A stretch of DNA of 36,398 bases from Chloroflexota bacterium (GCA_013816405.1 JACDEL010000024.1:1-36398); one strand, 5' to 3'; numbered from the stretch's first letter, positions 2,084 to 29,076 are shown. Made by a program: numbers and translations. Notes: generated by a model not told the origin, from the sequence alone.

Positions 2084-2086
2084 CCG

Positions 2087-2578: not shown

Positions 2579-2588
2579 GATTCGTGAG

Positions 2589-2842: not shown

Positions 2843-2922
2843 CGCGGCCTATAGCGCTGTGCTTCGAGCGTGCAGCCCGGACCGTTTTGGGCCGAATCCG
2901 GAGCTCTATCCGAGCTGACGCA

Positions 2923-3201
2923 CTAAGCGGTATCCGCCTTCCACTGGCGTCGCTTGCTCCGGCTGGCTCGCGCCTTCGCTGACGCCATCGCCAACCGGAG
3001 AAAATGCGCCTGGCGCGCTTGCTCAGCTCGCCGGAGCCGCTCGGCTTCGGGTAACCGTCGATATGGATCGACCTCGTTAATGAAGCGCTCCAAGAACTTG
3101 CGGCGGGCGGCCTGAGTTAGGTAGCGCGAGTCGTAGCGCGAGTGAAGGACCGCGGCGCCCAGCCGGCCACGCAGGGCGCGCTGCTCAGGTGTCACGTGCA
3201 T
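2923..3201 (-). CDS. 92-aa basic protein of unknown function, coupled to the AAA ATPase
   Basis: Starts at ATG 3201, inside the 3' end of the ATPase gene (17-nt overlap), which suggests translational coupling. The product is Arg/Ala-rich and highly charged: MHVTPEQRALRGRLGA at the start, a central region LHSRYDSRYLTQAARRKFLERF, then a long helical part rich in E, R, A and K (PEAERLRRAEQARQAHF). No membrane segment or cysteine is seen. I recognise it as a type of small conserved protein common in actinobacterial and related accessory regions, but I know no function. It is the last gene of the ubiquitin-like system 1 run. Confidence 0.7.
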   Translation of the reverse strand: MHVTPEQRALRGRLGAAVLHSRYDSRYLTQAARRKFLERFINEVDPYRRLPEAERLRRAEQARQAHFLRLAMASAKARASRSKRRQWKADTA

Positions 3202-4438: not shown

Positions 4439-4529
4439 CGCAACGTCTCTGCTATGTGTTGAGTGGATTGGCCGGGGAGCGCCGCATGACGCCTCCCCGG
4501 CCATGTCCTCACCTCGTGAGGTAACCGCC

Positions 4530-5228
4530 CTACGCCGCGGGCTGCACCCGGCGCAACCACGAGCGCGATGTCATCGCGTTCGCGACCACGTCGAGGTACA
4601 CCTCGGAGTAGGACACGCTGCCGCGCTCGAGCACCGCCCACAGGCAGTTGAGCATCGCCGAGGCGACCATCAAGTTGGTCACCACCAGCTGGGGTCGCTG
4701 CTCGGCCTGTCGCTCGCAACCGTTGCGGGCCGCGAACTCGGCCTCGGTGGCCCGGCCGATCTCGACGTGGATCTCGGCCAGGCTGCCGTCGACGAACTGA
4801 CCACCCCGGCGACGGACGAGCTGGACGTTGCCGTCCGTCTCGTCGTTGCCGCCGCTGATGATGGTCACCTCGGCCAGACCGGCGAGGTGCCGGTCGACCA
4901 GGAAGCGGCTCCAGTGGTTGTCGACCGCCAGCAGGACCACGTCGCCGTCACGGATCACCGTGGCGACGTTCGCTTCCGTCAGGTAGTCGGTCACCGCCTG
5001 GATCGTCAGCCCCCGATACACTTCGGCCAAGGCCTCGGCCTTGTTCGCACCGATGGCGGTCTCGGGGAAGACCTGCCGCGTCCGGTTGCCGGGCTCGTAG
5101 GCGTCGCCGTCGACGAGCACCAGCAGCGGGCGCGGCTCTGGCCGAAAGGCCAGGTAGCGGACCAGGCTTGGCAGCAGCTGAGAGCCGATGCCGCCCAGTC
5201 CGACCAGGACGATGCGCTCAGGCATCAT
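4530..5228 (-). CDS. ThiF/E1-like activating enzyme of ubiquitin-like system 1
   Basis: A 232-aa Rossmann-fold protein. The nucleotide-binding motif GLGGIG is at residues 10-15, followed by the acidic/Asn/Arg set LVDGDAYEPGNRTRQ expected for adenylating E1/ThiF/MoeB proteins. Cys171 in NGCERQ is a candidate thioester cysteine; this region up to the C-terminus resembles ThiF proteins of PRTRC-type cassettes. E1 enzymes adenylate the C-terminal glycine of a ubiquitin-like modifier. The ATG at 5228 is preceded by AAAGGAGG at good spacing and overlaps the JAMM stop (TGATG). A longer in-frame reading to 5465 is a shadow of the JAMM gene. Confidence 0.85.
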   Translation of the reverse strand: MMPERIVLVGLGGIGSQLLPSLVRYLAFRPEPRPLLVLVDGDAYEPGNRTRQVFPETAIGANKAEALAEVYRGLTIQAVTDYLTEANVATVIRDGDVVLLAVDNHWSRFLVDRHLAGLAEVTIISGGNDETDGNVQLVRRRGGQFVDGSLAEIHVEIGRATEAEFAARNGCERQAEQRPQLVVTNLMVASAMLNCLWAVLERGSVSYSEVYLDVVANAMTSRSWLRRVQPAA

Positions 5229-6064
5229 CACGTTCCTCCTTTCGCAGCCGACGTCGCGATCGGCGTCAGCTGATAGACCAGGCTCTCGCCCAGCTGGCTG
5301 GCCAGCTCGGTCGCCTCGCTCAGGAGCCGGTCGAGCGTGGTCCGGTCGCGCCAGGTCCAGGTAGGCACCGTCGGCGAGGACCGTGACTTCCCGTTCGACC
5401 TGGCATGACCGTTGGCCTTGGCCTTCTTCGGCTCGACCGCAATCGGCTTCACCCGCTCCAGCCATTCGGCCGGAGGTGAGCTGAAGCGTCGTGGCCGCTG
5501 CAGCACCAGCGCGGTGCGGCAGCCGAAGCGCCGGCCGTCGACCACGATCGCGGCCGAGTAGCTCGGCCTGCGTTCGTCGACGTCGCCGACCACGACGTGG
5601 ATGCCGTCGAAGTCGGCCTCGTCGGCCTCGTCGGTCGCGCTGGCGAAGGCGCTCAGCGCGCCGTGGCTGTGGATCGAGCCGATGAGACGCACCCCGGCGG
5701 GCACGTCCTCCAGCTTGAGCCGGTGCTTGACGGTGGCCATCCCGGCGCTCTGCTCCGGCACCACGAGTCCGAACGACTCGCCGTCCCAGGTCAGCAGCGC
5801 CAGCGCCTCCGACTTCTGCCGCGACCAGACGGCGCGGAAGAAGCCGACCGCCTGGGCCATCAGCGTCGCGGGCACCTTGGGTAACGCGTACTCGAGGTAC
5901 TCGCGCGCTGCTGGTAGGTGGGCCACTTCATCGACCCGCGTCTGCGAGAGTCCCAGAAGACTCCGCTTGCGCAGGTAGAGCCCGTCGCGGGCCACCAGGA
6001 AGGCCGGAAGTGAGACCTCCTCGACCGCGGACTCGTCCGCGGTGATGATCGGAAACAGGCTCAT
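5228..6064 (-). CDS. JAB/JAMM metallopeptidase (Mov34/MPN type) of ubiquitin-like system 1
   Basis: A 278-aa protein with a complete JAMM motif: Glu86 (SEAL), His132 and His134 (HSH), Ser142 and Asp145 (SATD). JAMM peptidases use Zn2+ to cut ubiquitin-like proteins, either to mature the C-terminus or to remove the modifier. The modifier at 7177 ends G-LAA, so trimming of three residues would expose its glycine; this is a testable inference. A Lys/Ser-rich linker at about residues 215-235 leads to a short helical tail. The start at ATG 6064 has AGGAGG 7 nt upstream and overlaps the preceding stop (ATGA); the 9 extra codons of the longer reading are unlikely. Confidence 0.88.
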   Translation of the reverse strand: MSLFPIITADESAVEEVSLPAFLVARDGLYLRKRSLLGLSQTRVDEVAHLPAAREYLEYALPKVPATLMAQAVGFFRAVWSRQKSEALALLTWDGESFGLVVPEQSAGMATVKHRLKLEDVPAGVRLIGSIHSHGALSAFASATDEADEADFDGIHVVVGDVDERRPSYSAAIVVDGRRFGCRTALVLQRPRRFSSPPAEWLERVKPIAVEPKKAKANGHARSNGKSRSSPTVPTWTWRDRTTLDRLLSEATELASQLGESLVYQLTPIATSAAKGGT

Positions 6065-6324
6065 GGCCCCACCTCCTGATCGGGCAGCCATAGGACGATG
6101 CGCTCCAGGTGAGCGAATCGCCGGTACTCGACCAGCCGCTCGTCGCGGAGGGGGAACCCCCCGTCGCGCAGCAGCTTGGCCGCCACGGCGAAGGCCGCGG
6201 AGGCCAGCTCGCCGGGGATCGAGCCATCGGTGGCGTACACCGCCCGGCGCTGGCCGAGCAATGCCGTCGTCCGCGTGGTCTCGAGGCTCCGGCAGCGGGT
6301 CATCGGCTCAAGCAGCCGCCGCAT
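6061..6324 (-). CDS. 87-aa protein of unknown function inside ubiquitin-like operon 1
   Basis: It begins at ATG 6324 with AAGGAGG at ideal distance, overlaps the end of the E2-like gene by 17 nt, and ends in an ATGA overlap with the JAMM gene, so it is clearly translated as part of the operon. The product starts MRRLLEPMTRCRS and has an alpha-helical middle (GELASAAFAVAAKLLRDG) and a C-terminal strand-like part (LERIVLWLPDQ). One Cys is near the N-terminus. I do not recognise a family. By position it could be a substrate adaptor or a small partner of the E2-like protein. Confidence 0.75.
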   Translation of the reverse strand: MRRLLEPMTRCRSLETTRTTALLGQRRAVYATDGSIPGELASAAFAVAAKLLRDGGFPLRDERLVEYRRFAHLERIVLWLPDQEVGP

Positions 6325-7087
6325 GGGAGTCGCCTCCTTCCGCGGGCGGCGTCTGCTCCGGCGCCGGTGTCTCCACCGACGCCTGGCCCTCGCCGCTGGT
6401 CGCCGCTCCCGGCAGGTCCTCGGGGGACATGCCGGCCGCTGCGGCCACCACTTGGCGCAGGCTGCGCCAGTAGCGGTCGTATGGGGCCGACAGACCGGCC
6501 ATCGGATCCCGTCGTGAGCGCGACGCCCACGCCCGGAACCCTCCACTGAACGGCAGCGGATGGCGCCGGATGTCAGCGTTGAAGCGCGATCCCCAGAACG
6601 CCCCGATGAGCGCCTCGATCCGTTCGGCGCTGCTGTCGCCGGCCACCTGTACCGATCCCAGGCAAACGATGCCGTCGTCGGAGGTGTTGGGCAGGCAGCT
6701 GTGCTCGAGCGGATCATCGAGGCTGCCCAGCGGGCTGGTGCGGAAGAAGTTCATGACGCTCTCGATGCGACCACCGACGCTCGGCACCACGAACACGACG
6801 TACGGGAAGCTGAGCCGGTGGGTCACCGGCTCGCTGCCGTACCGCCGTGAGGCGTGGTACACGATCTGGCGCCGCATCGGGAGCTGTTCGACCACGAACA
6901 CCTCCCGTCCCTCGGGCGAGCGAACCCAGAAGCGGCAGCCGGCGGGCAGCACGCCGCTGCACGCCGACCGCTGCTCGGCCAGCCGGCTCAGGAGGTCGTC
7001 GAGCGCGACTTCGCGTTCGGTCACCTCGGTCACCAGCGTGGCCAGGTCGCCCTCGATGCGCAGGTACTTGCGCGAATGCATGGACAT
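6308..7087 (-). CDS. E2-like protein (PRTRC-B / Prok-E2_D type) of ubiquitin-like system 1
   Basis: A 259-aa protein. Its core (SFPYVVFVVPSVGGRIESV, then LPNTSDDGIVCLGSV) has the layout of the prokaryotic E2 family D / PRTRC protein B proteins: a hydrophobic strand pair, an aromatic-rich segment, and a conserved cysteine in a D-x-x-V-C-x-G context. Cys142 is the candidate thioester residue; Cys131 is a second possibility. The C-terminal 40 residues are low-complexity (Ala, Glu, Pro, Gly). ATG 7087 has GGAG 8 nt upstream; a GTG one codon earlier is also possible. The gene follows the modifier by 89 nt and overlaps the 87-aa gene. E2 activity is a family inference; the similarity is judged by eye. 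Confidence 0.72.
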   Translation of the reverse strand: MSMHSRKYLRIEGDLATLVTEVTEREVALDDLLSRLAEQRSACSGVLPAGCRFWVRSPEGREVFVVEQLPMRRQIVYHASRRYGSEPVTHRLSFPYVVFVVPSVGGRIESVMNFFRTSPLGSLDDPLEHSCLPNTSDDGIVCLGSVQVAGDSSAERIEALIGAFWGSRFNADIRRHPLPFSGGFRAWASRSRRDPMAGLSAPYDRYWRSLRQVVAAAAGMSPEDLPGAATSGEGQASVETPAPEQTPPAEGGDSHAAAA

Positions 7088-7176
7088 CACTTGAGCTCCT
7101 CTCTGCTGGATTCGGGAGCCGGCCCGGGCGCACCGCGTGGTGCCACCCGGACCGCTCCCGGTCCGTTGGCCGGATC

Positions 7177-7413
7177 TCAGGCGGCGAGGCCCTTGACGCC
7201 GGCCGGCTTGAGGAACTCGATCTCGTCGCCGGCGCGCACGATGTGGTCGTCAGCGACCGTTTGGCCGTTGACGCTGACCGTCGTCTCGCGCGGCAAGTTG
7301 AGCACCTGCTCCAGCATCTTCCAGATGCCGCGGATGCTCTTCCCTCCCAGATCGAGACTGAGCTCGTTGACGCCGTATACGACCTTGCAGGTCGTGTCCT
7401 CGTAGGTCTGCAC
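7177..7413 (-). CDS. Beta-grasp ubiquitin-like modifier of system 1
   Basis: A 78-aa protein, first gene of the operon. GTG 7413 is chosen because AAGGAG lies 7 nt upstream; an in-frame ATG 12 codons earlier has no such site. It shows a ubiquitin/ThiS/MoaD-like pattern: strands CKVVYGVNELSLDL, a helix (SIRGIWKMLEQVLNL), then TTVSVNGQTVADDHIV and AGDEIEFLKPAGV. The tail reads GVKGLAA, so the likely reactive glycine is followed by three residues and would need trimming. With the E1, E2-like and JAMM genes downstream this makes a full conjugation set. The fold call is by pattern and context. Confidence 0.78.
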   Translation of the reverse strand: MQTYEDTTCKVVYGVNELSLDLGGKSIRGIWKMLEQVLNLPRETTVSVNGQTVADDHIVRAGDEIEFLKPAGVKGLAA

Positions 7414-10664: not shown

Positions 10665-11900
10665 CTAGGCGAGGGACTTGTTCACGCCCTCGAAGAGGGC
10701 TTCCCATCCGTCGACCTCGTCCGCAGTCATATCGGCCGCGGAATGACTACTCAGCCAGTGCAGGAAGGCCTTGGTCAACTTGTACTTGGAGAAAGCCTTC
10801 ACTTCGGCCTGGAAGATGTCAACGATTGGTCGGCTCGGCTGAGCGGTTGCTATCTTGGCGATGTCCCAGCCCAGCTCACTCTTCGCAACTGCGACGAGAG
10901 TGTCGCGCAAGAGATCTTCAGTTTCTGGCTTGGAGACGACTCCCTTGTAGTAGTCCTTGGTTCTGTGGATTCGCCTATTCGGCAGCAGCCGAACAAAGTC
11001 GTCCTGGGTCGCGGCCTGGTCGCCCGCCTGGTCGGAATCAAGTAGCGCAGCGACCTTCAGTGCTTGCGACTGAAGGATCGTGCCGTAATAGACGACCTTC
11101 CCAGCGTCCCCGGCTGGAACCACCGCGATCTTCGCATCGAGGCCTGTCTTTCCGACTGCCTGCAGCGCCTCAGAGGCTCCCTCCAGGAACCAGAGATCGG
11201 TAAGGCCTTCGCAGATGAGGTTCTTCTCCTGGGCGAATAGGTTCTGCGCGAGGTTGTAGCCGAGCGCTTCCTGCAGCGGGAAAAGGGAACGTGGATCGTC
11301 CGCCAAGATCCCGACATGTACTTTGGTGCCCATCTCACGGTCGCGCATTTCCACGACGCGAACCTTGTCCAGCTCTTCTGGTCCGACCATGAAGGGCGAG
11401 TGCGTTGTGTAAAGGGTCTGGTTGTCTTCGGCCAGCCGAGAAACCGTCTTCCGAAACTCCTGCTGCTTCAGGGCATGAAGACTAAGTCCAGGCTCGTCTA
11501 GCAGAAGAATGGCATTCGCGAGCTTATCCATGACTTCTGCTCGGAAAATCACGTAGAAACTGACGAGCCAAACAAACCCGTGGCTGCGCTGATCTAGCTC
11601 GACTTCGCGCACATCGACGCCTAGCCGCGCGAGCAGAATCGCGGGGATTGGATAGCGTCCCGTCCCTCGGGGTATTCGCTCAGGTGCATCAGACCTCTCT
11701 ACGGATGCCGCGGCAAGAGCGAAGTAGCCGACGACGCGCCGGCTCCTCCGAAAGCACACCACATAGACGACGGCTGTCTCTGCAGCTTGAGCCCGCAGGG
11801 CATATCTACGCAGCCACTCTGTCTGTGCATCCGAACCGCAGTCGAACTGCCCCGTATCGTGGTCCGGCCCGTGTCGTTCGACGGGACCGTATCCCGTCAC
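10665..11900 (-). pseudogene. In-frame chimera: GNAT (TacT-like) toxin N-terminus fused to OLD-family ATPase/TOPRIM C-terminus
   Basis: A single 411-codon frame from GTG 11900. Residues about 15-97 match GNAT acetyltransferase toxins of DUF1778 pairs (FDCGSDAQTEWLRRYALRAQ, RVVGYFALAAASVERSDAPE, YPIPAILLARLGVD). The frame then changes, near base 11605, to the C-terminal half of an OLD-type overcoming-lysogeny-defect nuclease: Walker B ILLLDEPGLSLHA, TTHSPFMV, then TOPRIM-type ICEGLTDLWFLEG and ALLDSDQAG. The GNAT part lacks its acetyl-CoA loop (R/QxxGxG) and the OLD part lacks Walker A. So it is most simply a deletion scar that happened to stay in frame, and neither activity is expected to survive. 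Confidence 0.75.
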
Positions 11901-14314: not shown

Positions 14315-14692
14315 CTATCGCGAAAGTCGGGACGAGGCGATCAGCCGCTGCAACAAGAGCATCGACCATCCAGCAGCAAGCACGATCTCGATGCCTCCAA
14401 TTAGGCGAGTCAAAGGTGGTTGTGAGGCATCAGCTACCAAACTGATGATCAACAGATGGCCTAGGGCTGCGACTAGGAGGACGACCGGCAGATCGAGCCA
14501 TAGGAACCTGCGCGATCGAGGCTTGGGAGGTGGACGCATCCATCGTGTTATCGCGAGTCGGTGTGGGGTGTAGGACGCTAGGAGCTCCGCAGTTAGGGCA
14601 ACGTACCCGACGATAACCGCGAGGGACACCCACACCGCCATCAAAGGAGCCATTGGCGATTCAAAGCGCTCACTTACCGGCGTTGTTGGCAT
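14315..14692 (-). CDS. Three-helix membrane protein next to RHS gene, candidate immunity protein
   Basis: A 125-aa product (ATG 14692; ATG 14653 would give 112 aa). It has three hydrophobic segments (APLMAVWVSLAVIVGYVALT, LDLPVVLLVAALGHLLIISL, IGGIEIVLAAGWSMLLL) separated by a basic loop. It begins inside the last codons of the RHS gene, on the same strand. In RHS polymorphic toxin loci this position is usual for the immunity gene. No sequence family is recognised, so the role is inferred from position alone. Confidence 0.55.
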   Translation of the reverse strand: MPTTPVSERFESPMAPLMAVWVSLAVIVGYVALTAELLASYTPHRLAITRWMRPPPKPRSRRFLWLDLPVVLLVAALGHLLIISLVADASQPPLTRLIGGIEIVLAAGWSMLLLQRLIASSRLSR

Positions 14693-17600
14693 TGGCGTTG
14701 GAGATCCGCTGCTCAAAATACGTCGCAAGTGCTTGCGCAATGCTTACCGACATGCCGAAGAGTGCACTCTTTAGTGCCGACGGAATTGGCACCGCCGCAG
14801 AGACCGCCCCACCGGCACACCCGATCCGAGTTTCATTCCTATCGCCCTGGCGACCGCCAAGCTCCTGCGACGCATAACTAGCGAGACAGCCAGCCGCCGC
14901 GCCCGCGAGCAGGCGCACGCTGAGGAGCCTTGCAGCCGATATTGGCCCAGAAACGACTCCAGCGGCACCGCCGATCACTGCATCGGCCGGATTGATCCCT
15001 CGCGACAGATCATCGGTGACCGGCCGATGGTGTACCAGATTGTCGATGCCATTCTGCGCGGTGTTCGCAGCGAGGTAGCCGAGTACGCCAACGGCTGCCG
15101 AGATACATTCTGGCAGGAGGAATATCAGCGGGCCGAAGCAACGTCCGCTGGGATCCGCGAAGAGGATCGGGTTGTTACCCGCGTAGGAGTAGTTGCTAGA
15201 GTACGGATCGGCCGCGCGCCCCGCCACCGGATCCGTCGTTAGGAAGCGGCCAATACTCGGATCGTATTGCCGCGCACGCAAGTGGTAGAGGCCGGTCACC
15301 GCATCAAGCTGTTCGCCAGCAAAGTTGAATGGCTGCCCAGTCGGCGCCCCGGCGCCTGACCCTGCCTGACGAACCAGTCCAAACGGGTAGTGCTCGCCCC
15401 ATGTAAGCGAGCTCCCGCTGCTACTCGTGATGTCGGTTACCGAGCCGAGCGCATCGGCGTGGTAGTAATAAGCGGTGGAGCCGGCGGTCTGGCGGAGGAG
15501 GTCGAGCCCGTAGCTGTACGAGCGCAGGAGTGCGTCGCTGCCATCGCGCTCAATCGCCAGCTGGGGCAGACCGAAGGTGCGATCCCAGAGGAACTTGGTT
15601 GTCTGGCTGGCTCCTCCACCGGTTGATCCTGACAGCCGTGTCCCGTCGCCGGCGTACGCATAAGTCTCCGTGACGGCGCCGACCGTGGCGGTCTTGAGCA
15701 GATCGGCCAGGTCGTAGGTGTAGGTCGTTGCGCCAGCTGAAGTCTGGTTGCCGTTGGCGTCGAATGCATAGCTGATCGCGCTCTGTCCGGGCGGCGTGAC
15801 ACTGGTGAGTCGGTCGGCGACGTCGTAGAGATACGTGGTGCTACCGGCGTTGCTGCCCTCTGTTAATCGGTTGCCCACGGGGTCGTAGGTGTAGGTCCGG
15901 TAGGTCTCGCCCGGGGGCGGGTTCACCGTCGCCGCCGGTCGGCTGAGCAATCCGCCAATGCAGGCAAGGCATGGCAACGGGCTGGCCGGCACGCCACCCG
16001 GGCAACTCGTGGACGACCAGCACGCCTCACTCAGCCGGTCGACAGCGTCGTAGCGATAGGTGACCGTCCCCTCGCGAGTGGTCATCGCAGTCCGGTTGCC
16101 GACCGGGTCGAGGCCGTAGCTGAAGCGCGACAGCGTATCGCTCACAGTGCTGTGGGCCACCTCCAGCAGCCGCCCGGCGCGGTCGTACGTGTAGCGCGCG
16201 GTCAACCCGTCGGGGGTAGCTGCGGTGAGCAAGTTGGCAGCCGGATCATAGGTGTAGGCCGCCCCGTTGGCGGTCATCAGGCGTCCGTCGTCGTCATAAA
16301 CCCACGTTTGAGCGCTCTGCCCGGGATAGGTGCGGCTGATGACGTTGCCGGCCAGGTCATAGCCGTCGCTGAAGGTGTCGCTGCCGCGGGTGACGGCGGT
16401 CGGTCGGTTGAGGGCATCGAAGGTATAGCTCTCGGTACCGGCCCCGTCGGTCATGGCGGTGCGGTTCGAGTTCGCGTCGTAAGCAAACGTAACCGTCGGG
16501 GTGGAGGTGGTGGCGTACGTAATCGAGGTGGGGCGGTTGAGGGCGTCGTAAGCATAGGTGGTGGTCTTGAGATTCGCGTCCCGGCGGGTGGCCAGGTTGC
16601 CGGCGGGGTCGTAGGTCAGCAGCCACACATGGCTGGCCGGGTCGGTGTTGCTGGTCAGCCGGTTGGCGAGGTCGTAGCCGTTCGTGGTGGTGTGCTGGTT
16701 AGCGTCGAGGCGAGTCTTCAGGTTGGCGACGTTGTCGTAGGTATAGGCGGTGGTCTTGCCCGCCGCATCGGTAACTGAGCTGAGATGGTTGGCCGCATCG
16801 TAGGCGTAGGTGATCGGATGGTTGTTGGCGTCGGTGACGGTCAGCAGGTTGCCGGCGTCGTCGTAGGTCCGGGTCGTAACGTCGCGTAGTGGGTCGGTGA
16901 CAGTCAACGGGTGGTCGGCCAGGTTGTAGGTGAAACTGGTGGTGTACTGTGCCGGATCGCCGCCGACCACATTGCCGCGCGGCTCGACCATCGTCAGAAG
17001 GCGCCCGGCCGCGTCGTAACTCATGGTCGTCTTGTTGCCGAGCGGGGTGGTGATCAGATTGAGATTGGCCTGGCTGTCGTAGGCGTAGGTGGTGGTCTTG
17101 CCGCGGGGGTCGGTGGTGGTGACCAGGAGGCCCGTGCCGGCAGGGTCGCGGCCGTACTGGGTGATGGCGCCGAGTGGCGCGCCGACTGTGATCAGGTTGC
17201 CGGCCGCGTCGTAGGTGTACGTGGTCTGGTTGGTGCGCCCATCGGTGTAAGTCGCTACGTCGTTGAGGGCGGTGTAGGTCCAGGTCTCGACGTAGGAGAG
17301 CGGGGAGGGGGCGGTTCGCGTCAACAGGTTCCCGGCTGTGTCGTAGGTGAGCTGGGTCGTGAGGTTGCGGGGGTTGGTGATGGTCGTCACACTCGCATTG
17401 GAGTCATACCCGTAGCGGGTGGTGTTGCCCAGTGGATCGACGCTACGCATCAACACGTTCCGCGAGTAGGCGTCGACCCACTTGCCGCCATTGGCGTCGG
17501 TGAAGGTGCTGGTCTGGGTCGTGGCGTCCCAAGCGAAGGTGGCGCGCTTGCCTCGGGCGTCGGTCTGCGCCGAGACCCGCCCGTTCGCTCCGTACTCGTT

Positions 17601-18923
17601 AGTAACGACGGTGTGCAGGTTGGGATCGACGATGGTCGCCAGCCGGCCTCCGGCGTCGTAGGTGTAGGTCCACACCTTGCTACGCACGTCGGTCACGCTA
17701 TTTAGACGCCCATTGGCGTCGTAGCCATACGTCACGCTGCGAGACGGAGGACCAGCCAGTCCCGTCAAGCGGCCATTGGCGTCGTAGGTCAGGGTCACGG
17801 CGCGACCCACTGTGTCGGTGACTTGGCTCAGCCGCCCGCTGCTATAGCCCATCGTCAACTGGTTGGCGTTTCGATCGAGGATTGCCGTCAACAAACCAGC
17901 CGCATCAAACCGATCGCGGACCTGGTCGCGCCCTGTCAGTTCGTAGCCCCCCGCGATGGGCGCCAAGCGGCTCAGCGCACCCGGCGGAGCGGTGAAGCCT
18001 CCCTGGCCGTTCGGCGTGAACAACAGCTGAGCTCCGTCCTCGGCGTACAAGCGGACGCTGCTATCGGGGTTGATGACCAGGCGCGCCTCGTACGCGTGGC
18101 GCCAGCCAGGCCCAAGGACGCCGCTTCCCGTGTCCAGTGAGTTATAGGTCCGCCGGAAGGCGAAGCCCAGCCCGCGACCCGGCAGGGCAACGTCAGTGAC
18201 TTCTGACAGGTAGTTGCCGAGGGCAGTGTTGACCGGTTCCGCTTCGTAGCGAGTGGTGCAACTGACGAGCCCCGTCGTGCAAAGCCCGTATAGCTGCGAA
18301 TCGGGCAGAGGTGGGATGTAGCCCTCGTCGATGACCTCATGTGAGACCTGCCAAATGTAGATCTGCATCGAGTATTCGACGGCAATGGCTCCGGCTGGCG
18401 CGACGGCGTAGGCGGTTCGCATCGCCGGGACGGTGTATGGGCTGCTAGAGGTCCAGGTGGCGATGATGCCGAGGTCAACCATGCCCGCTCCACGCCAGCG
18501 CAGCGTCATGGTGCGAGGGTTCAGGTCGGAGGAGAATTTCGAATTGAAGGTGTACGTATTGCCGGCGATGAAGTTCCATCGCCAGCGCTGTACCTTCGGC
18601 CCCCCCGTGTTTTCGGAGCGACATTGCCCGCCGTTTCCGGAGCCCCAGGAATCGCCCCACGTGTTGCTCGAGGTACCACCGATCACATTCGGGAATGAGG
18701 TCCACGCATTCGCACGCATCGACCCGACTCCCCCGCACGCGGGCACGAGGGTCGGGAACGACACATATCCGGTCTGGGTGGGCGAGGCTAGAGGCGGGCT
18801 AGTGCGTGCTACTCCAGGTGCGCGCACAACAGGCAACGCAGTGACTAGAGTGGGGCTTACTGCCTGCAGGACCAAAGTCAGGCAGGTTAGAGCCGCGAAC
18901 CCACGAAACCGCAACTGTCGCAT
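14670..18923 (-). CDS. Secreted RHS/YD-repeat protein, probable polymorphic toxin
   Basis: About 1417 aa. From ATG 18923 there is a signal peptide (MRQLRFRGFAALTCLTLVLQ). Residues ~240-330 form a DUF6531-like start (NTALGNYLSEVTDVALPGRG), then dozens of YD repeats (TYDANGRL, YDAAGNLLT patterns) run to the conserved RHS core end (LYHLRARQYDPSIGRFLTTD). After the core comes a variable ~130-residue tail rich in Gly/Ala (PADAVIGGAAGVVSGP, LLAGAAAGCLASYA), which holds the putative effector domain. The repeats form a shell that encloses the toxin tip in known RHS proteins. An earlier ATG at 18992 would put 23 residues before the signal peptide. A small remnant of another RHS core lies at 31797. Confidence 0.9.
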   Translation of the reverse strand: MRQLRFRGFAALTCLTLVLQAVSPTLVTALPVVRAPGVARTSPPLASPTQTGYVSFPTLVPACGGVGSMRANAWTSFPNVIGGTSSNTWGDSWGSGNGGQCRSENTGGPKVQRWRWNFIAGNTYTFNSKFSSDLNPRTMTLRWRGAGMVDLGIIATWTSSSPYTVPAMRTAYAVAPAGAIAVEYSMQIYIWQVSHEVIDEGYIPPLPDSQLYGLCTTGLVSCTTRYEAEPVNTALGNYLSEVTDVALPGRGLGFAFRRTYNSLDTGSGVLGPGWRHAYEARLVINPDSSVRLYAEDGAQLLFTPNGQGGFTAPPGALSRLAPIAGGYELTGRDQVRDRFDAAGLLTAILDRNANQLTMGYSSGRLSQVTDTVGRAVTLTYDANGRLTGLAGPPSRSVTYGYDANGRLNSVTDVRSKVWTYTYDAGGRLATIVDPNLHTVVTNEYGANGRVSAQTDARGKRATFAWDATTQTSTFTDANGGKWVDAYSRNVLMRSVDPLGNTTRYGYDSNASVTTITNPRNLTTQLTYDTAGNLLTRTAPSPLSYVETWTYTALNDVATYTDGRTNQTTYTYDAAGNLITVGAPLGAITQYGRDPAGTGLLVTTTDPRGKTTTYAYDSQANLNLITTPLGNKTTMSYDAAGRLLTMVEPRGNVVGGDPAQYTTSFTYNLADHPLTVTDPLRDVTTRTYDDAGNLLTVTDANNHPITYAYDAANHLSSVTDAAGKTTAYTYDNVANLKTRLDANQHTTTNGYDLANRLTSNTDPASHVWLLTYDPAGNLATRRDANLKTTTYAYDALNRPTSITYATTSTPTVTFAYDANSNRTAMTDGAGTESYTFDALNRPTAVTRGSDTFSDGYDLAGNVISRTYPGQSAQTWVYDDDGRLMTANGAAYTYDPAANLLTAATPDGLTARYTYDRAGRLLEVAHSTVSDTLSRFSYGLDPVGNRTAMTTREGTVTYRYDAVDRLSEACWSSTSCPGGVPASPLPCLACIGGLLSRPAATVNPPPGETYRTYTYDPVGNRLTEGSNAGSTTYLYDVADRLTSVTPPGQSAISYAFDANGNQTSAGATTYTYDLADLLKTATVGAVTETYAYAGDGTRLSGSTGGGASQTTKFLWDRTFGLPQLAIERDGSDALLRSYSYGLDLLRQTAGSTAYYYHADALGSVTDITSSSGSSLTWGEHYPFGLVRQAGSGAGAPTGQPFNFAGEQLDAVTGLYHLRARQYDPSIGRFLTTDPVAGRAADPYSSNYSYAGNNPILFADPSGRCFGPLIFLLPECISAAVGVLGYLAANTAQNGIDNLVHHRPVTDDLSRGINPADAVIGGAAGVVSGPISAARLLSVRLLAGAAAGCLASYASQELGGRQGDRNETRIGCAGGAVSAAVPIPSALKSALFGMSVSIAQALATYFEQRISNANANNAGK

Positions 18924-19002
18924 AATGCCCCCACCCAACAGTCGCCGAGGTTTCGACGGGGCTTTGGACCAGCCTCCGTCGCCCGGTGTCATAAGGACGC
19001 TA

Positions 19003-20572
19003 TCACCCCGGTGGACCTCCTGGTGGCCGGATTTGCGCAGCCACGAACGAATCCCACTTCCTGGGGTGCGGAATCCCTTCCCCTCGTTTGACCTTGGCGC
19101 AATAACCCACCGGAAACCCAGTCGCTCTAGCGATCGCTTGTGCCGACAGGCTGGCTAGTTTCGGGGTGACCTCTCTCGCAAACCACTCGCGATCGACCGG
19201 CTCTGGATGTTCGCGATCCCATGCCAACTCCTGCAACCGTTGAGCTTTTCGCTTCTCGCTCCGCTTTCGGTTTGCCTCCGGCGTGAGACCAGGATGATCC
19301 GGGCGACCCGCTAACCGACGCATCCGTTCCGAGCTGGTGGCCGCGAACTGCTTGTGGATCTGTCCCAGTACACGGTCGGCGCACTCCGAATTGCACGTGC
19401 TTCTGCCCATTGGAGTCGGATCGCCGCACCAGGAGCAAACCTTCCGATCGCGAGCGACGCGGTCCTTGGAGATGCGGTGCCGGACGGCCGACCTTCCGCT
19501 CGCCGCCGCCCACTGATCGGCGTCGGCACGGGACCTTGACTCGGCCGCAATAGCGCCGCCGCGAAGTCCTCGGCCACCTTGCCGACCAGCTCGCCCCAGT
19601 GCCGGCTCGTCAGCGCGAGCTCGTGGGTCATTGGCGCGGTCACCCGGCAAGCGCCGAGCGAAGTCTCGAAGAAGTCCCGCGCCGCGAATGACCTGGTGGA
19701 CATGAGTTCGAATGCGTACGCGTCGACCAGCGGTCGCACCGGTTCCATCAGGTCGGCTGCCAGCGAGTCCCGGTGCGCCTGGTCGGCGTGCATGACTCCC
19801 AACCCAGGATCCAGCCCGACGATCCGCGCAGCCAGCGTCGCCTCGCCTTCAAGCAGCGCGTACAGGTAGTTGAGCACCGCGTTCGCCGGATTCGCCGCCA
19901 AGCGGGGGCCATTGGCCAATGGGGATGACCGGCCGCCGAAAGTGCGCCAAGACTCGGCACCCGGTCGGCGTCTCGACGGGCGAACCGGACGGACAGCGGG
20001 GCGAGCGCTTGCCAGTACGCACCAGCAGCCCAGGCTTCGCATCCGCGCAAGTCGTCGATCGTTCGTGGTTCGCCGATCGCTTTCCGGTACGCTGCGATGA
20101 TGGCCACGGCCACGTCTACTGGGGTGGCCGGCGCAAAGTGCTGCAAGGTCGCCGTTTGGCCACATAGTTTGGCGTCCACCAGCCAGCGGGACAGGGTGAG
20201 AGCTTGATCGGTCTGTGTGGCGATCGCCTGCGCCCGCCGCAGGGATGGGCGGTCGGTGCTAGGCGGCCCGAAGGTGGCCAGCACCCGGCCGTCGGCGTCG
20301 ATCTGCAGGTAGGCGGCCCTGATGTCGGCCAGCCAACGCAGGGCCTCGAGGCTGACGTAGCCCGTGTGGCCCAGGACGACTAGGCGCTTCAGGCCACTGG
20401 TGGCTCGCTGGAACAGTCGGTTGCGCCTGTTGGCACCAATCCCGTCGTTAATCCGAAGCCGGCCGCGGAACACGCTGATACGAACCCCATACCCGCTGGC
20501 GACAACGACACCGCTCCGGGCGGTGGCCTCCTCGGCCCAGGAATCGGAGGACGCGGTAGGCTGAGCTTGCAT
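19003..20572 (-). pseudogene. cas1: Cas1-family endonuclease with C-terminal zinc finger and HTH, two frameshifts
   Basis: Starts at ATG 20572 after GGAGGG. Three frames must be joined. The first (20572 to ~19956) has the Cas1 N-domain (VVVASGYGVRISVFRGRLRI, HTGYVSLEALRWLAD). The second (~19956 to ~19445) has the catalytic half: ANPANAVLNYLYALLEGE with the metal-binding Glu, then VMHADQAHRDSLAADLM with His and Asp. The third (~19445 to 19003) has a CxxC..C..C zinc finger (CSWCGDPTP, CNSEC) and an HTH-like end. Each junction needs one inserted base. Cas1 integrates DNA; forms with such an extension and no cas2 or array belong to solo Cas1 groups. The frameshifts may be decay or sequence error. 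It is 60 nt after the 333-aa gene. Confidence 0.8.
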
Positions 20573-20595
20573 GCGGACTTCCCTCCGTGTGCCAC

Positions 20596-20626
20596 GCCCC
20601 CGGGCTGTTTCCGCAGCCGCGGGGGC
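20596..20626. other. Strong hairpin between the 333-aa gene and cas1
   Basis: GCCCCCG-GGCTG / TTTCCG / CAGCC-G-CGGGGGC pairs into an 11-bp GC stem with one bulge. It lacks a T-run, so it is not a typical intrinsic terminator; it may limit or regulate cas1 translation or mark an mRNA processing site. Position is between the stop at 20632 and the cas1 ribosome site. Confidence 0.45.
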
Positions 20627-20631
20627 CATGC

Positions 20632-22376: not shown

Positions 22377-23039
22377 TCATTGGCCGTCCTGGCGGTCCTG
22401 CGCGCGAGCCTGCTGCGACGCCTTGGCCGGCAGTTGCTGGTCCGCCTTGGCTTGGAGTGGCGCGCTGCGGCCCGAGATTTCGGCGCGCACCGCATCCAGT
22501 GGCCGGGCATCGCGTCGGTCGCTGTCGGCGATCAGCGCTGCGGCCTGCTGCGGGTCACCCGCTGGTGGCAGGCAGACCCGGCCGCCGTACACGGCCGGAC
22601 GGCCGGCGGGGCCAGGCATGCGCAGCACCAGCTCGTGGCGCGGCAGGGCCAGCAGATCCTCCTCGCGCAGCGGCGCGAACAGCCGCGCCAGGCCGTGGAC
22701 ATCGTCGGCGACGATCCAAGAGGGGATGAGCTTAGAGTCGGGGTCAATCGCAATCCATGTCCAGACGTCGCCGTAGCCCTGTTCGCCCTGATGCTTCGCG
22801 GGGACGTTCTTGGCCTTGGCGTGGCAGAAGGCCCACACCTCATCGCACTCGATCCGCGTACTGCTGAGGTTGCGAAAGGCGCGATCCTGATATTCGGTGG
22901 CCGCGTCGCCAAGGTCTACCAGCAACTTCATGATCGTGTTCTGCGCAAAGCCGGTCACGCGGTTGATCGAGCGGATCGAGTTGCCTTCGACCAGCAGCCG
23001 AATGATCTGTGCGCGTTCCGCCGTGCTCAACTTGTTCAT
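22377..23039 (-). pseudogene. Fusion: IS1-family transposase N-terminus plus TraG-like coupling protein tail
   Basis: The frame from ATG 23039 begins as an IS1-type transposase: MNKLSTAERAQIIRLLVEGN with HTH, then RIECDEVWAFCHAKAKNVP and YGDVWTWIAIDPDSKLIPSW. After residue ~110 (base 22709) the transposase C-terminus, with its remaining catalytic residues, is missing. The frame instead reads DVHGLARLFAPLREEDLLAL, then VYGGRVCLPPAGDPQQAAAL, which resembles the C-terminus of VirD4/TraG-like coupling proteins in conjugative elements. That second call is weak. The next gene (Replic_Relax) is a usual neighbour of such proteins. The simplest explanation is an IS1 insertion followed by deletion. Confidence 0.65.
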
Positions 23040-23095
23040 ACTGCGATGATGCTTGAGGAGTGTGACAACAGTGTGTCGTGATGACACCCAGTGTC
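22709..23095 (-). mobile_element. Truncated IS1-family insertion sequence
   Basis: The transposase N-terminal coding part (23039 to 22709) with its upstream end. Between 23040 and 23095, alternating GTGTCATC/GATGACAC-like inverted motifs may belong to the IS end, but no clean terminal inverted repeat or target duplication could be defined. The other end is deleted. Confidence 0.45.
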
Positions 23096-23112
23096 CACAA
23101 GTGATTATGGAT

Positions 23113-23129
23113 GTACCATTGTGTGGTAC
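23113..23129. other. Short palindrome GTACCA-5-TGGTAC
   Basis: A perfect 6-bp inverted repeat with 5-nt spacer, located between the IS1 remnant and the tRNA. A similar GTACCACA string occurs in the promoter region of the gene at 23824. It may be an operator shared by the two sites. Confidence 0.3.
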
Positions 23130-23171
23130 TTGTCAGCACGTTTGTTAGCGTGTAGATTCAGAGGAACTGAG

Positions 23172-23255
23172 TGGGCCTGCCGGGGCTCGAACCCGGATGG
23201 TCGTAAGACCAGGGAGGTGGTAACTCCCCGCGTCAACCAATTGCGCCACAGGCCC
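23172..23255 (-). tRNA. Class II-type tRNA with anticodon ACC (atypical)
   Basis: 84 nt fold well as a long-variable-arm tRNA: acceptor GGGCCTG/CAGGCCC with A73, T8, D-arm GCG..CGC with GG in the loop, anticodon stem GGGAG/CTCCC, loop TTACCAC (U33, anticodon ACC), 15-nt variable arm with hairpin GGTC-TTAC-GACC, T-arm CCGGG-TTCGAGC-CCCGG. CCA is not encoded. ACC would read Gly GGU, but glycine tRNAs have short variable loops and bacteria rarely use A34 there; long arms are normal only for Leu, Ser and Tyr. So the identity is uncertain. It may be an element-borne tRNA charged with Ser or Leu, or an att-site relic. Confidence 0.7.
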
Positions 23256-25429: not shown

Positions 25430-26383
25430 TCAGGTCGCGGCACTGTCTATGACCAGGGACGCGTACTCGGACTCAAAGAGCTTCTGCCGATCGCCAACCG
25501 CGAGACGCTGGAGGCAGTAGAGCTGCCAGTAATTGCGCCAAGTCTCACTGTCCAGCTCCAGGTGCTCGACAACAAGACCAATCTTGGGGTCCTGTGCGTC
25601 CTGCCAGGAGATCATCTGACCATGTGACTGCCAGCGTTGTGTGTCCAACAGTTGGCTGGCGGCCTGAGACCAATTTCCCTCGTTCCGAAACATTCCGCGT
25701 CTCAGTTGGTTCTCGGCAAAGGCTAAGGCTCGGGCACGAACGGCCTCGAAGAGTTTCACGGTCGCAGGGTCAAGCTTGCCCAGCATGATGCGCGCCGTGA
25801 CGTCGTCGGGGTTCTTCGCGAGGGTCTCGCTGTGCGCCTTGTACGCGTCCAGATAGCTTTGAACTGAGTGCCGGATCCGGTTCCCGTTCCCGTCCGCCAG
25901 GATGATTTGCGGATCTATCGGACCAAGCTCCGATGTCTCGCTCATTACGATGAGATCGGCACCAAGTGCCATGAGCGTACCGGCACTCTTGGCGTAGTCC
26001 GGAACCACGACTCGCAACACCGCATTGGCGACCTTCGTTCGGACCATCGTGATCAGCTTCTCTGCCGCATCTATGTCGCCACCCCCGGTGTGGAGGAGGA
26101 GGTCGAGGTCCTGACCGGCGCGAATGTTGTGGAGGAGGTCAACGAGTCCGATCGTGTCGTCACGGTCAACCGGTGCTTGGTTTCCGGCGACATAGCAGAT
26201 CAGCTGGCGGCCGGTGTTCTCCTGAATCAGCTTGATCGTGGCCTGGCGTTGGTATCGGAGTGCGTTGTGTGCCTGGTAGAGCGGCGTCTTGGTCGGCGGT
26301 AAGACAGCCTGCTCAAGGACCTCCTGAGGTGCGTCGGCCGGGACCTCACGTTTCGCCGGTGGCGATCCGCCCTCAGCCCTCAT
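25430..26383 (-). CDS. SDH/ClpP-class serine protease of ubiquitin-like system 2
   Basis: A 317-aa cytosolic protein of the serine dehydrogenase proteinase (SDH_sah) group, with the crotonase/ClpP fold. HTGGGD (98-103) is the oxyanion-type turn; Ser133 in DYAKSAGTLMALGA is the nucleophile; the SELGPIDPQI block follows as in SppA/ClpP-like enzymes. No signal peptide or membrane anchor is present. ATG 26383 overlaps the DUF6527 stop (ATGA), so it is translated with the conjugation genes. By analogy with ClpP-type proteases, it may degrade or process modified proteins; this is inference. No ATPase partner is adjacent. Confidence 0.82.
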   Translation of the reverse strand: MRAEGGSPPAKREVPADAPQEVLEQAVLPPTKTPLYQAHNALRYQRQATIKLIQENTGRQLICYVAGNQAPVDRDDTIGLVDLLHNIRAGQDLDLLLHTGGGDIDAAEKLITMVRTKVANAVLRVVVPDYAKSAGTLMALGADLIVMSETSELGPIDPQIILADGNGNRIRHSVQSYLDAYKAHSETLAKNPDDVTARIMLGKLDPATVKLFEAVRARALAFAENQLRRGMFRNEGNWSQAASQLLDTQRWQSHGQMISWQDAQDPKIGLVVEHLELDSETWRNYWQLYCLQRLAVGDRQKLFESEYASLVIDSAAT

Positions 26384-26739
26384 GACTCGTCGACCGGTCC
26401 GTCGTCCCGCACCCATGTCACGACCCCTCGCCGAAGGACGAAGTGGCAGCGACGCACGGCGACTCGGTCGTCAACACTTGGCCACACCGTGAGCGGGTTT
26501 GACTGGTGGACCGTCCATCGAGGGTAGCGGAACGCATCAAGGTTCAGCATGATGCGGTGTCCGATCCCGCACGGACAGTCGAACGCGAGCCAGGTCGCAA
26601 TACCCCTCGGCGCGACCAATACAGCGCCTCTCGGGGGAAGGCGAACAGGAATCTCATCGCCCGCACCAACCCGGCCGACGATCCGCCATTTGCGCCACGG
26701 AAAGGGCAGCCAATGCCACCACCGCCTTACGCGGCCCAC
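26380..26739 (-). CDS. DUF6527 family protein of ubiquitin-like system 2
   Basis: A 119-aa protein. After a Trp-rich start (WWHWLPFPWRKWRIV) comes the DUF6527 pattern: LPPRGAVLVAPRGIATWLAF, then DCPCGIGHRIMLNLDAF, PRWTVHQSNPLTVWPSVDD and RRCHFVLRRGVVTWV. The CPCG-x-GH cysteines and the CH pair form a probable zinc site. This family is repeatedly found with bacterial E1/E2/ubiquitin-like genes, which supports the assignment. It overlaps the JAMM-E1 gene by 13 nt and the protease by 4 nt. Its role is unknown; a substrate or modifier reader is possible. Confidence 0.78.
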   Translation of the reverse strand: MGRVRRWWHWLPFPWRKWRIVGRVGAGDEIPVRLPPRGAVLVAPRGIATWLAFDCPCGIGHRIMLNLDAFRYPRWTVHQSNPLTVWPSVDDRVAVRRCHFVLRRGVVTWVRDDGPVDES

Positions 26740-28106
26740 GTCTGATCAAGGAATGGGGTGGTCATCCCGCGTCCCAGCTTTCCAGACGACGGATGGCAGT
26801 AGTGGTGTTCTCGAGGTTCCTGGTGGTTCGTCGAGACCTCGCGGTCGTGGATTCGAACGAGCACTTCGCTGGGAGCCGGGTTGGGACCATATCCAATGAG
26901 ACGCTCCAGTAACTCCCCGACTGCATAGGCGGCCACGAGCGTCGTATAAGCGACGACCGCGGGCTCAACTCCGGGAAGTGCCGGCGCGTAACCCTCGTCG
27001 ACGCGCCGAATGCGTTCCTCGGAAGCGAGCATCTCGCTGCCTGCGCGTGCAAGGTCGATGCGGTTTCGGCAGACGAGGCAAGCCGATCCAGGGGTAAGAA
27101 CGGTGATTCGGCCAAAGATTCCTTCTAGCCGACCGTCGACGTCAGTGAGCAGGACCCCGCAGTCAATGACCGGCAGCAGCATGTAGGTCGACAGGCGTGA
27201 GAGGACGAGCCGACCGGCGTTGTCGTCGGTGCACCCGAACACGATGTCGACACCTGTCAGGCGTCGGGCGACGTCTTCCACGTTGACCGTCGACGCAATG
27301 TCGTCAATGTCGGCATCAGGTGCGATTCGCCGAAGATGCCCTGCCAGGGCTTCGACTTTAAGGTTTCCAACATCCTCAGCCCGTGATCCGTAAACGCGCG
27401 TCAGATTACTGATCGAGAGTCGATCTGGGTCGATCAGGAGAAGATTCCGCACGCCAAGGCGAACGAGTTGCTCCCCGACCGAGGATCCTATTCCACCGCA
27501 TCCCACAATGCCGACTCGCAGGTCGCCAAGCGCGCGCTGGACGCCGCCGCCAAATGCACGAATGTTCCGGTCGAACAATGGCTCGAGCTTGGCATTGGGG
27601 GCGAGGTCGCTTCGGGACAGCGAGATCCGAGGCCCCACGATCAGGAGCCGATCGATCTCGATGCGCCCGGAACCCGAGTCGAGGTGTCCCGAGAACCGCA
27701 GACCACCACTCTCTTGCGACATGATCACGGACCCGTAGTAGACGCTGCCTGAACGCAGGCGAAACAAGCCGCTGAGCTCGTCATCCACCCGGCGATCCTT
27801 TCGACTCGGCCGAGGCGAAGACCCGTCCCCAGGGTGAGAGTGGAACCACAGGGCTGTCGCACCCTTGACTTCCGCCGTTCCCAGAGCGGGAACGTAGCCA
27901 GCCGACGTGATCAAGAGTTGTCTGTCGTCTCGTATGTTGTAGGCAGTGTCTGGCACGGGAATGAGGTCAGTTGCCAACAGGCGAATGTCTCCGTTCGGGA
28001 CGTTGACAAGCTGAGCGAGGATGACGGCTCCGGTCTCGACCTTGAGCTTGGCAATGTCGCGAAGCGCCGACGCCATCTGCTCTGAGAGTACCAATGTGGT
28101 GGTCAT
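26727..28106 (-). CDS. JAMM peptidase - E1 (ThiF) fusion of ubiquitin-like system 2
   Basis: A 459-aa two-domain protein. Residues 1-150 are a JAMM domain with Glu24, His89 and His91 (FHSHPGDG), Ser101 and Asp104, so metal binding is intact. From ~195 onwards is an E1/ThiF adenylation domain with GCGGIG at 202-207, the LIDPD/NLTRV segment, CTDDNAGR and a Cys pair at 343/346 (ACLVC) that probably binds zinc; Cys316 (IDCG) is a further cysteine in the core. Fusion of the maturing or deconjugating peptidase with the activating enzyme is known in bacterial ubiquitin-like systems. ATG 28106 overlaps the E2 stop. Confidence 0.88.
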   Translation of the reverse strand: MTTTLVLSEQMASALRDIAKLKVETGAVILAQLVNVPNGDIRLLATDLIPVPDTAYNIRDDRQLLITSAGYVPALGTAEVKGATALWFHSHPGDGSSPRPSRKDRRVDDELSGLFRLRSGSVYYGSVIMSQESGGLRFSGHLDSGSGRIEIDRLLIVGPRISLSRSDLAPNAKLEPLFDRNIRAFGGGVQRALGDLRVGIVGCGGIGSSVGEQLVRLGVRNLLLIDPDRLSISNLTRVYGSRAEDVGNLKVEALAGHLRRIAPDADIDDIASTVNVEDVARRLTGVDIVFGCTDDNAGRLVLSRLSTYMLLPVIDCGVLLTDVDGRLEGIFGRITVLTPGSACLVCRNRIDLARAGSEMLASEERIRRVDEGYAPALPGVEPAVVAYTTLVAAYAVGELLERLIGYGPNPAPSEVLVRIHDREVSTNHQEPREHHYCHPSSGKLGRGMTTPFLDQTWAA

Positions 28107-28492
28107 GATCCTGTGGCCGCGGTTCGATCAAGCTCATGCCGAATGAGTGCGAGGTAACTTTCAAGGCCGTCGCTCCCAGGCTGCCATTGGCTTGGATGCA
28201 GGTGTCGAGACCACCGTTGCCACGCGCGACCAAGGTGCATTTCGGTCGACTCTGTGGCGGGGATCGCTCGGCCGTCGGCAAGACGGATGCCAGGGTCAAA
28301 CCACCACATGTCTGGCGGTATGTCCGGATAACCGGCTTGGAGACGAAGCAGGAGGTCGGACGACGAACGATCGAACCCGACCGGCAGCGGCCACCCGGGG
28401 AACAGCACATTTGTTGCACCACCCTCGACGGTCAGCTCGTGTGCGATGCCGCGATCAACAAGGTAGGCCGTGTCGGCCTCGGGAAGAACCAT
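28103..28492 (-). CDS. E2-like protein (Prok-E2_E type) of ubiquitin-like system 2, no cysteine
   Basis: A 129-aa protein from ATG 28492 (AAAGGAG 13 nt upstream). The core has the UBC-like pattern of the Prok-E2_E group: NVLFPGWPLPVGFDR, LLLRLQAGYPDIPPDMWWFD, HLGRAWQRWSRHL and a C-terminal helix. I find no Cys in the predicted product, so the usual E2 thioester cannot form on it as read. A longer frame to 28654 adds one Cys far from the fold and overlaps the modifier gene, so it is not preferred. It lies between the modifier and the JAMM-E1 gene with an ATGA overlap. Confidence 0.8.
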   Translation of the reverse strand: MVLPEADTAYLVDRGIAHELTVEGGATNVLFPGWPLPVGFDRSSSDLLLRLQAGYPDIPPDMWWFDPGIRLADGRAIPATESTEMHLGRAWQRWSRHLHPSQWQPGSDGLESYLALIRHELDRTAATGS

Positions 28493-28514
28493 GCGTCTGG
28501 GAGAGCTCCTTTGG

Positions 28515-28784
28515 TCAGCCTCGGCGGCCGGGGTTGATATGCCCCGGCGCAGTAAAGAACCGCTTGCCGTTTCGAATCTCCACCACATCGGTATCGGCGA
28601 GCTTCTTATCCGGATTCCCGGGGACGACCTCAAACAGGTCGCGCTCTGGTCCAATCGGCGTTTCGGGGACTTGACGCAGCTCGGCGCCTGTCATCTGCGA
28701 CTTCGTGACGACGTAGTGGATCCGATCGATCTGGATCCGGAACTCGTCGTGGGTTGGCTTCTTGGCCTCGGGCGAATCGGTCAT
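28515..28784 (-). CDS. Ubiquitin-like modifier of system 2 (multiubiquitin-domain type)
   Basis: An 89-aa protein, first gene of the operon, from ATG 28784 with AGGAGG 5 nt upstream. After an N-terminal charged part it has one multiubiquitin-type domain: FRIQIDRIHYVVTKSQMTGA, then DLFEVVPGNPDKKLADTDVV, then NGKRFFTAPGHINPG. The C-terminus ends in Gly (GRRG), so it may need no trimming, unlike the system 1 modifier. The upstream region holds a palindrome and a divergent RHH gene. Confidence 0.85.
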   Translation of the reverse strand: MTDSPEAKKPTHDEFRIQIDRIHYVVTKSQMTGAELRQVPETPIGPERDLFEVVPGNPDKKLADTDVVEIRNGKRFFTAPGHINPGRRG

Positions 28785-28810
28785 CGTTGCCTCCTACTGG
28801 GGTTGCCACC

Positions 28811-28853
28811 ACGATACCACTCCACCACGCTACTTGACAACCAGGGTGTCAAG
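28811..28853. promoter_or_regulatory. Divergent control region of system 2: palindrome CTTGACA-7-TGTCAAG and promoters
   Basis: A perfect 7-bp inverted repeat (28833-28839 and 28847-28853) sits between the divergent modifier and RHH genes. It contains a TTGACA on each strand. For the minus-strand operon, TTGTCA with TATCGT (28816-28811) about 18 nt on is a candidate promoter. For the RHH gene, TTGACA at 28834 with CACGAT about 18 nt on would give a leaderless or near-leaderless start. The palindrome overlaps both, as an autoregulatory operator would. Confidence 0.5.
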
Positions 28854-28869
28854 GTCGCACGATTGCCAC

Positions 28870-29076
28870 ATGAAGCAACAGAAAGCAATGACGATCCGCC
28901 TGTCGGCAGACCAAGCACAGGAGCTTGAGACCGTCGCTACTGTCGATAACCAGCCAGTCTCAGAAGTAATTCGCGCGGCCATCGCCGAACACATTGAGAA
29001 CCGAAGGAAGGACGCCGGTTTTCAAGACGGGCTGAAGGACCGAATCGAGCGGGCCCAGAGACTATTAGGCGGCTGA
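28870..29076 (+). CDS. Ribbon-helix-helix (CopG/Arc) DNA-binding protein
   Basis: A 68-aa protein from ATG 28870. The strand-helix-helix pattern is clear: KAMTIRLSADQAQELETVAT, then QPVSEVIRAAIAEHIENRR. Such proteins bind short palindromes as dimers and often control their neighbours. It is divergent from ubiquitin-like system 2 with a palindrome between them, so it is the likely regulator of that operon. It has no good ribosome site. No toxin gene follows with a clear start. Confidence 0.75.
   Translation: MKQQKAMTIRLSADQAQELETVATVDNQPVSEVIRAAIAEHIENRRKDAGFQDGLKDRIERAQRLLGG

Follow-up and report, generated by a model that had tools for sequence, protein, structure and literature searches.

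Organization of the Locus

The subject of this analysis is an operon in a stretch of 36,398 nt of DNA from a Chloroflexota bacterium (GCA_013816405.1 JACDEL010000024.1:1-36398). The whole stretch is referred to as the window, and positions are counted from its first letter. A profile search of the window located five genes that follow one another in the same direction on the minus strand, from 28784 down to 25430, in the order ubiquitin-like modifier (Ubl), E2-like protein, JAMM-E1 fusion, DUF6527 protein and SDH-type serine protease. Judged by their profile and structure matches, the first four genes are a Bub (bacterial ubiquitination-like) operon, to which the protease gene is added as the fifth. 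A preliminary description, made from the sequence alone, had placed the same five genes on one strand here, and the Pfam profiles found all of them at that place, each identity being matched by its profile or motif.

The Ubl gene (28515..28784, minus strand, as are all genes of the operon) encodes a BubA-like protein of 89 residues with one Multi_ubiq domain (PF14452, E = 1e-8, 35.8 bits against a cut-off of 24.5). The BubB-like Prok-E2_E protein of 129 residues (28103..28492; PF14462, E = 4e-37) probably starts at the ATG at 28492; a longer open reading frame (ORF) with a TTG start is less likely, because the relatives are about 129 residues long. The BubCD-like JAMM-E1 fusion (26727..28106) has 459 residues and matches ThiF with E = 6e-37. 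The DUF6527 protein (26380..26739; PF20137, E = 3e-17) has 119 residues and a GTG start. The last gene (25430..26383) encodes a soluble protein of 317 residues, predicted to be a ClpP-fold serine protease (PF01972, E = 5e-15; score 55.6 bits, cut-off 31.3).

The genes had been described as five overlapping genes, which holds for three of the four junctions: E2/E1 (4 bases), E1/DUF6527 (13 bases) and DUF6527/protease (4 bases). At the fourth junction, a gap of 22 bases separates the Ubl and E2 genes. The ATGA overlap that was said to join the protease to the operon was borne out, as the protease starts within it at 26383 rather than at the first in-frame ATG at 26416, and the same 4-base overlap was seen in 17 of the 27 compared loci.

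Active Site and Fold of the Protease

The predicted catalytic serine, Ser133 in the motif DYAKSAGT (25985..25987, minus strand), is the residue that the preliminary description had named as the nucleophile. It is invariant in 29 operon-linked copies and in five non-Bub relatives, as are the two other predicted members of the triad, Asp157 in GPIDPQ (25913..25915) and His254 in SHGQ (25622..25624). The AlphaFold model of the protease has a mean predicted local distance difference test (pLDDT) score of 89.6, with low confidence for the first 25 or so residues. The closest folds to this predicted structure were NfeD 1510-N (E = 1e-5), followed by ClpP and SppA (about 1e-4). Of these, 1510-N and SppA are Ser-Lys proteases found at membranes. 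ClpP is a Ser-His-Asp protease that forms a barrel and works with AAA+ partners. The window protease differs from all three in that it is soluble, has the order Ser-Asp-His and has no partner unfoldase gene in its operon. No gene of the operon encodes an AAA+ unfoldase, and the annotated plasmid loci show no recurrent ATPase downstream; a partner elsewhere in the genome was not looked for. Against the NCBIfam equivalog Clp_like_SDH (NF047768) the protease scored 66.9 bits, below the curated cut-off of 250 bits.

Two SDH genes that are not associated with Bub (L039 and L042) share the C-terminal region of the window protease. The second of these (201-3068 of a Micrarchaeota contig), which belongs to the same subfamily, stands alone beside a Type ISP restriction-modification protein.

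Linkage of the Protease to Bub Operons

A scan of one genome per species, seeded with the protease, gave 35 loci, which were annotated using profile hidden Markov models built from the window and plasmid loci. In 26 of them (L015-L038, L040 and L041), E1, DUF6527 and SDH genes were found in the order of the window. The Ubl and E2 genes were also found in these loci, except in L018, which reaches a contig end, and L040, in which frames are broken and no Ubl match was obtained. The 26 loci span six phyla: Pseudomonadota, Actinomycetota, Acidobacteriota, Planctomycetota, Gemmatimonadota and Chloroflexota. The five-gene arrangement is far beyond chance, since it recurs in so many genome loci. The remaining nine protease matches lie away from Bub genes and show at most 38% identity, save for a short segment of 46% (L047). 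Broken frames of E1 and/or the protease were seen in L008, L009, L010 and L040, which may reflect decay or sequencing error.

A survey of this kind finds protease-bearing loci by construction and thus gives no proof that every member of the clade has the gene; an independent check was provided by searches of plasmids with E2 and E1 (seven records, five distinct loci). The seven plasmid records with close relatives of the protease (at least 80% coverage, 49-55% identity) were the same seven that hold the closest E2 (50-59%) and E1 (53-58%) proteins. When the searches were seeded with E2 or E1, and thus did not depend on the protease, all seven main-clade records were found to carry it. The clade is well set off, as the next E1 shows at most 34% identity against 53-58% within it. 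In the five distinct records the same genes occur in the same order; one copy is frame-broken, and two unannotated genes of another were recovered by the profiles.

Outside this clade the protease is uncommon. Most Bub operons end after DUF6527, and an SDH protease was found beside a Prok-E2_E gene in 11 of 98 plasmid records, seven from the clade of the window and four from rhizobia. Ten other Bub plasmid loci that were opened gave no SDH profile match. Among 400 genomes of the same phylum as the window, ten had a Prok-E2_E match; of the nine others, six fetched loci (L058-L063) have a divergent E1 and no SDH match, and three (L064-L066) failed the screen for E1 plus E2. Viral contigs held no relatives of the protease or of E1, and in phage records E1 was absent and the SDH proteins were all distant ones.

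A tree of the E1 proteins from 47 loci, which contains a few very long branches and some joins flagged as unsure, placed the 29 main-clade rows in one group (support 100/100). The rhizobial group with the protease adjoins the Citrobacter type without it (100/99). Presence of the protease requires two changes on this tree, compared with 12.9 for shuffled labels, and none of 500 shuffles was as low. The protease therefore probably joined Bub operons twice; a single ancient gain with several losses is a possible alternative that needs more steps. Pairwise distances of the protease over 27 loci were correlated with those of E1 (r = 0.82), E2 (r = 0.81) and DUF6527 (r = 0.87).

The preliminary description had proposed a survey of this gene order and had considered that the coupling might be accidental. 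What was found is that the protease is neither adjacent in this genome only nor always missing from homologous operons, though most other Bub operons do lack it. Given the same order in 26 genome loci and in 7/7 plasmid records of the clade, and the invariant triad, the coupling is real and selected, and this branch of Bub operons has the protease as a fixed member.

The Conjugation Genes

The Ubl ends in ...FFTAPGHINPGRRG, in which the INPG motif is constant across the clade. Its glycine, Gly86 (28527..28529, minus strand), is invariant in the Ubl alignment and would be the reactive C-terminus once the tail is trimmed. In this alignment INPG is followed by about 1 to 12 variable residues, so a peptidase must presumably trim the Ubl before activation. 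The Ubl frame called in L041 does not have this end of INPG plus tail.

The closest solved structure to the E2-like protein is Citrobacter BubB (PDB 9eav, 9eav_D; E = 6e-13). The E2 of the window contains no cysteine, and its relatives contain none to three. A cysteine thioester on the window E2 is therefore not possible. The JAMM-E1 fusion is closest to Citrobacter BubCD (PDB 9ea4, 9ea4_A; E = 1e-25) over residues 35-407. Its JAMM metal-protease motif HSHPGDGSSPRPSRKD (27795..27842, minus strand) was found across the clade, and the residues H89, H91, S101 and D104 of the motif are invariant in 12 aligned members. The Pfam JAB model alone stayed below its cut-off on this protein (17.2 against 25 bits); the motif is intact nonetheless.

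The DUF6527 protein had been called a zinc protein. Its membership of the family (PF20137) stands, and the zinc label is uncertain, as a Ser-His pair is invariant. This pair, Ser88...His99 (PSV...CHF; 26443..26478, minus strand), appears as PS[VI]...H[FYW] in all 44 copies, whether or not an SDH gene accompanies them. A cysteine close to this histidine changes position between lineages; CPC is constant in the aligned copies. The protein may thus contain a metal site, be a Ser-His protease, or both. Ye et al. reportedly describe intermediates of the oxyester type and, for Bub operons, Ser-His serine proteases that form a new family, a description that DUF6527 fits better than the SDH protein does. 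The Ser-His reading leans on conservation and on this reported family, since DUF6527 had no relative among solved structures and a fold search gave no significant match (best E = 2.5; model pLDDT 80).

Regulators and Neighbouring Genes

A divergent gene on the plus strand (28870..29076) encodes a ribbon-helix-helix (RHH) protein of the DUF6290/CopG-like type (PF19807, E = 2e-7; RHH_1, E = 3e-4), which is the probable regulator of the operon. Apart from L040 and L041, and from L018, which stops at the contig edge, the main-clade loci have a homologue in the same divergent position. In L041, CapH+CapP (4090-5078) replace the RHH gene in a Bub operon that bears the protease, and the rhizobial lineage combines a CapH-like gene with the protease. 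Bub operons are known as hundreds of putative immune operons, many of them with CapW, CapH+CapP or CapK+CapS regulators (PMC13373217). Such DNA-damage regulators are frequent neighbours of Bub operons and do not define them. The window and its clade, apart from L041 with its CapH+CapP, have the RHH gene in place of CapH+CapP or CapK+CapS; no search aimed at CapW was made.

About half of the main-clade loci, most of them alphaproteobacterial (L004-L007, L020-L027 and L031, and more weakly L034 and L036), have a gene of the Fic family and its small partner ORF immediately upstream of the RHH gene. The window has no Fic gene.

Comparison with Known Systems

The core of the operon matches operon type 6e, which was described as a polyUbl, an inactive E2/RWD-like protein, a JAB-E1 and a predicted metal-binding protein (Iyer et al. 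2006, PMC1779556). The window shares with this type, and with the Bub operon of Citrobacter (BubB/BubCD), a Ubl, an E2 that has no conserved cysteine, a JAMM-E1 and a DUF6527-type protein in this order. It differs from ordinary Bub operons in the extra fifth SDH gene, and in its divergent RHH gene, where many of them have CapK+CapS, CapH+CapP or CapW as regulators.

The rhizobial Bub operons (R. gallicum, R. leguminosarum and Rhizobium sp. T1473) are similar in that an SDH-type protease gene follows the Bub core. However, their Ubl and E2 are fused, their E1 groups with the Citrobacter type, and their protease is only about 25% identical to that of the window. Several of the rhizobial copies are interrupted in frame. 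Bil (BilABCD) and type II cyclic-oligonucleotide-based anti-phage signalling systems (CBASS; Cap2/Cap3) follow the common logic of a bacterial E1/E2 plus a JAMM peptidase, but they are different families: the PADLOC matches are confined to the ThiF part and come from generic E1-E2 models. PADLOC found no named system for the operon; the best 25 matches to the JAMM-E1 were all generic E1-E2, and the other four proteins were unmatched. The preliminary description knew of no characterised system with this layout, which is too strong for the core, since the Bub E1 and E2 have solved structures (9ea4 and 9eav) and published work. The Bub core is thus already known, and the protease-bearing, RHH-associated branch is, as far as checked, new.

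Possible Roles of the Protease

The operon can probably attach a ubiquitin-like tag to proteins. In the proposed pathway, the Ubl would be trimmed to the INPG glycine and activated by the E1 half of the JAMM-E1 fusion, and the cysteine-free E2-like protein would help to pass it to target proteins. JAMM and/or DUF6527 would carry out the trimming and take the Ubl off again. Ubl conjugates would then recruit or activate the SDH protease, which would make limited cuts in the marked proteins or complexes. Conjugation, trimming and deconjugation are read here from Bub relatives and family knowledge, and genetics is the sole ground for placing the action of the protease on conjugates and not at another point of the pathway. 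The protease may accordingly be seen as a dedicated proteolytic effector of an extended Bub pathway of the defence or stress type that cuts Ubl-marked proteins, a reading to which we give a probability of about 45%. A role added to those of JAMM and DUF6527 is the more probable because ordinary Bub operons hold both without the SDH protease.

Several points weigh against this reading. Any activity of the window protease on conjugates or other substrates is a prediction, and genetic linkage alone cannot tell the roles of effector, deconjugase and regulator apart. The genome survey was seeded by the protease, so that the independent support consists of the seven plasmid records, or five distinct loci. 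The SDH subfamily also exists without Bub (L039 and L042), so the fold has other uses. Lastly, bulk degradation of folded conjugates is made less likely by the lack of an unfoldase gene in the operon. For this reason the earlier suggestion that modification is read out in the manner of the ubiquitin-proteasome system was not supported; deconjugation or limited cutting fits equally.

Deconjugation leads to a different reading, in which the SDH protease provides a second activity for deconjugation or maturation and trims the Ubl tail behind INPG or frees the Ubl from its targets, complementing JAMM and DUF6527. The tails of about 1 to 12 residues need to be trimmed before activation, and DUF6527, which may itself be a Ser-His protease, is the partner with which the SDH protease covaries most (r = 0.87). 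However, Bub operons without the SDH gene process Ubl tails or Ubl-E2 fusions with JAMM and DUF6527, so a third enzyme would be redundant, and we consider this reading rather unlikely. Less likely still is a regulatory role, in which the protease would cleave the RHH repressor encoded upstream, as CapP cleaves CapH. Such protease-controlled repressors are known for Bub operons in the form of CapH+CapP (PMC13373217), and the main clade keeps the RHH gene almost as consistently as the protease; yet the protease is the last gene of the operon, away from the regulator. That it is a plain substitute for CapP is unlikely, as L041 has CapH+CapP in addition to the protease and the rhizobial loci have a CapH-like gene in addition to theirs.

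The position of the protease could also suggest a toxic effector, triggered by infection, that cuts host proteins (abortive infection) and leaves Ubl conjugates untouched. It is an extra last gene in a mobile, plasmid-borne operon of the defence type that occurs sporadically over six phyla. No sequence feature points to host targets, however, and this role seems improbable, slightly more so than that of a repressor-cleaving enzyme. The view that the protease lies beside the operon by accident and has no role in the pathway could appeal to the many Bub operons without it, given that only 11 of 98 plasmid records have one. It was rejected as exceedingly improbable in the face of the fixed order in 26 genome loci and 7/7 plasmid records, the translational overlap, the invariant triad and the occurrence in two lineages.

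Other Features of the Window

A second, unrelated ubiquitin-type cluster lies at 3185-7413 on the minus strand. It contains a small MoaD/Ub-like ORF, a PRTRC_B-like protein, a JAB protein (PRTRC_A, E = 6e-12), a ThiF protein (PRTRC_ThiF, E = 3e-13) and an AAA ATPase. The cluster looks like a remote PRTRC system, with every score under its curated cut-off. The other features noted are also on the minus strand. A protein of the OLD/GajA-like ATPase-TOPRIM type, with a partial match to these families, is encoded at 10665-11900, and an RHS-repeat protein of 1440 residues at 14670-18992. A Cas1 gene at 19311-20629 extends over two overlapping frames (profile positions 7-179 and 182-271) and is probably frame-broken. 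At 22377-23255, a tRNA-Gly (anticodon acc) adjoins an HTH_38 transposase-like ORF, which is perhaps the boundary of a mobile element.

Significance of the Protease-Bearing Branch

According to a 2026 paper (PMC13373217), protection against phage is yet to be demonstrated for Bub operons. The branch in which the protease is fixed offers a concrete output for the tag, one that can be tested by mutating a single catalytic serine. It is conceivable, though doubtful at present, that a ClpP-fold protease was recruited at least twice as a dedicated effector of Ubl conjugation that, encoded in the operon itself, cuts or destroys the marked proteins. This would be a counterpart of ubiquitin-directed proteolysis that arose by convergence and needs no proteasome. 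If the protease does act on tagged proteins, ubiquitin-like marking and protease action would have been coupled in bacteria independently of the proteasome.

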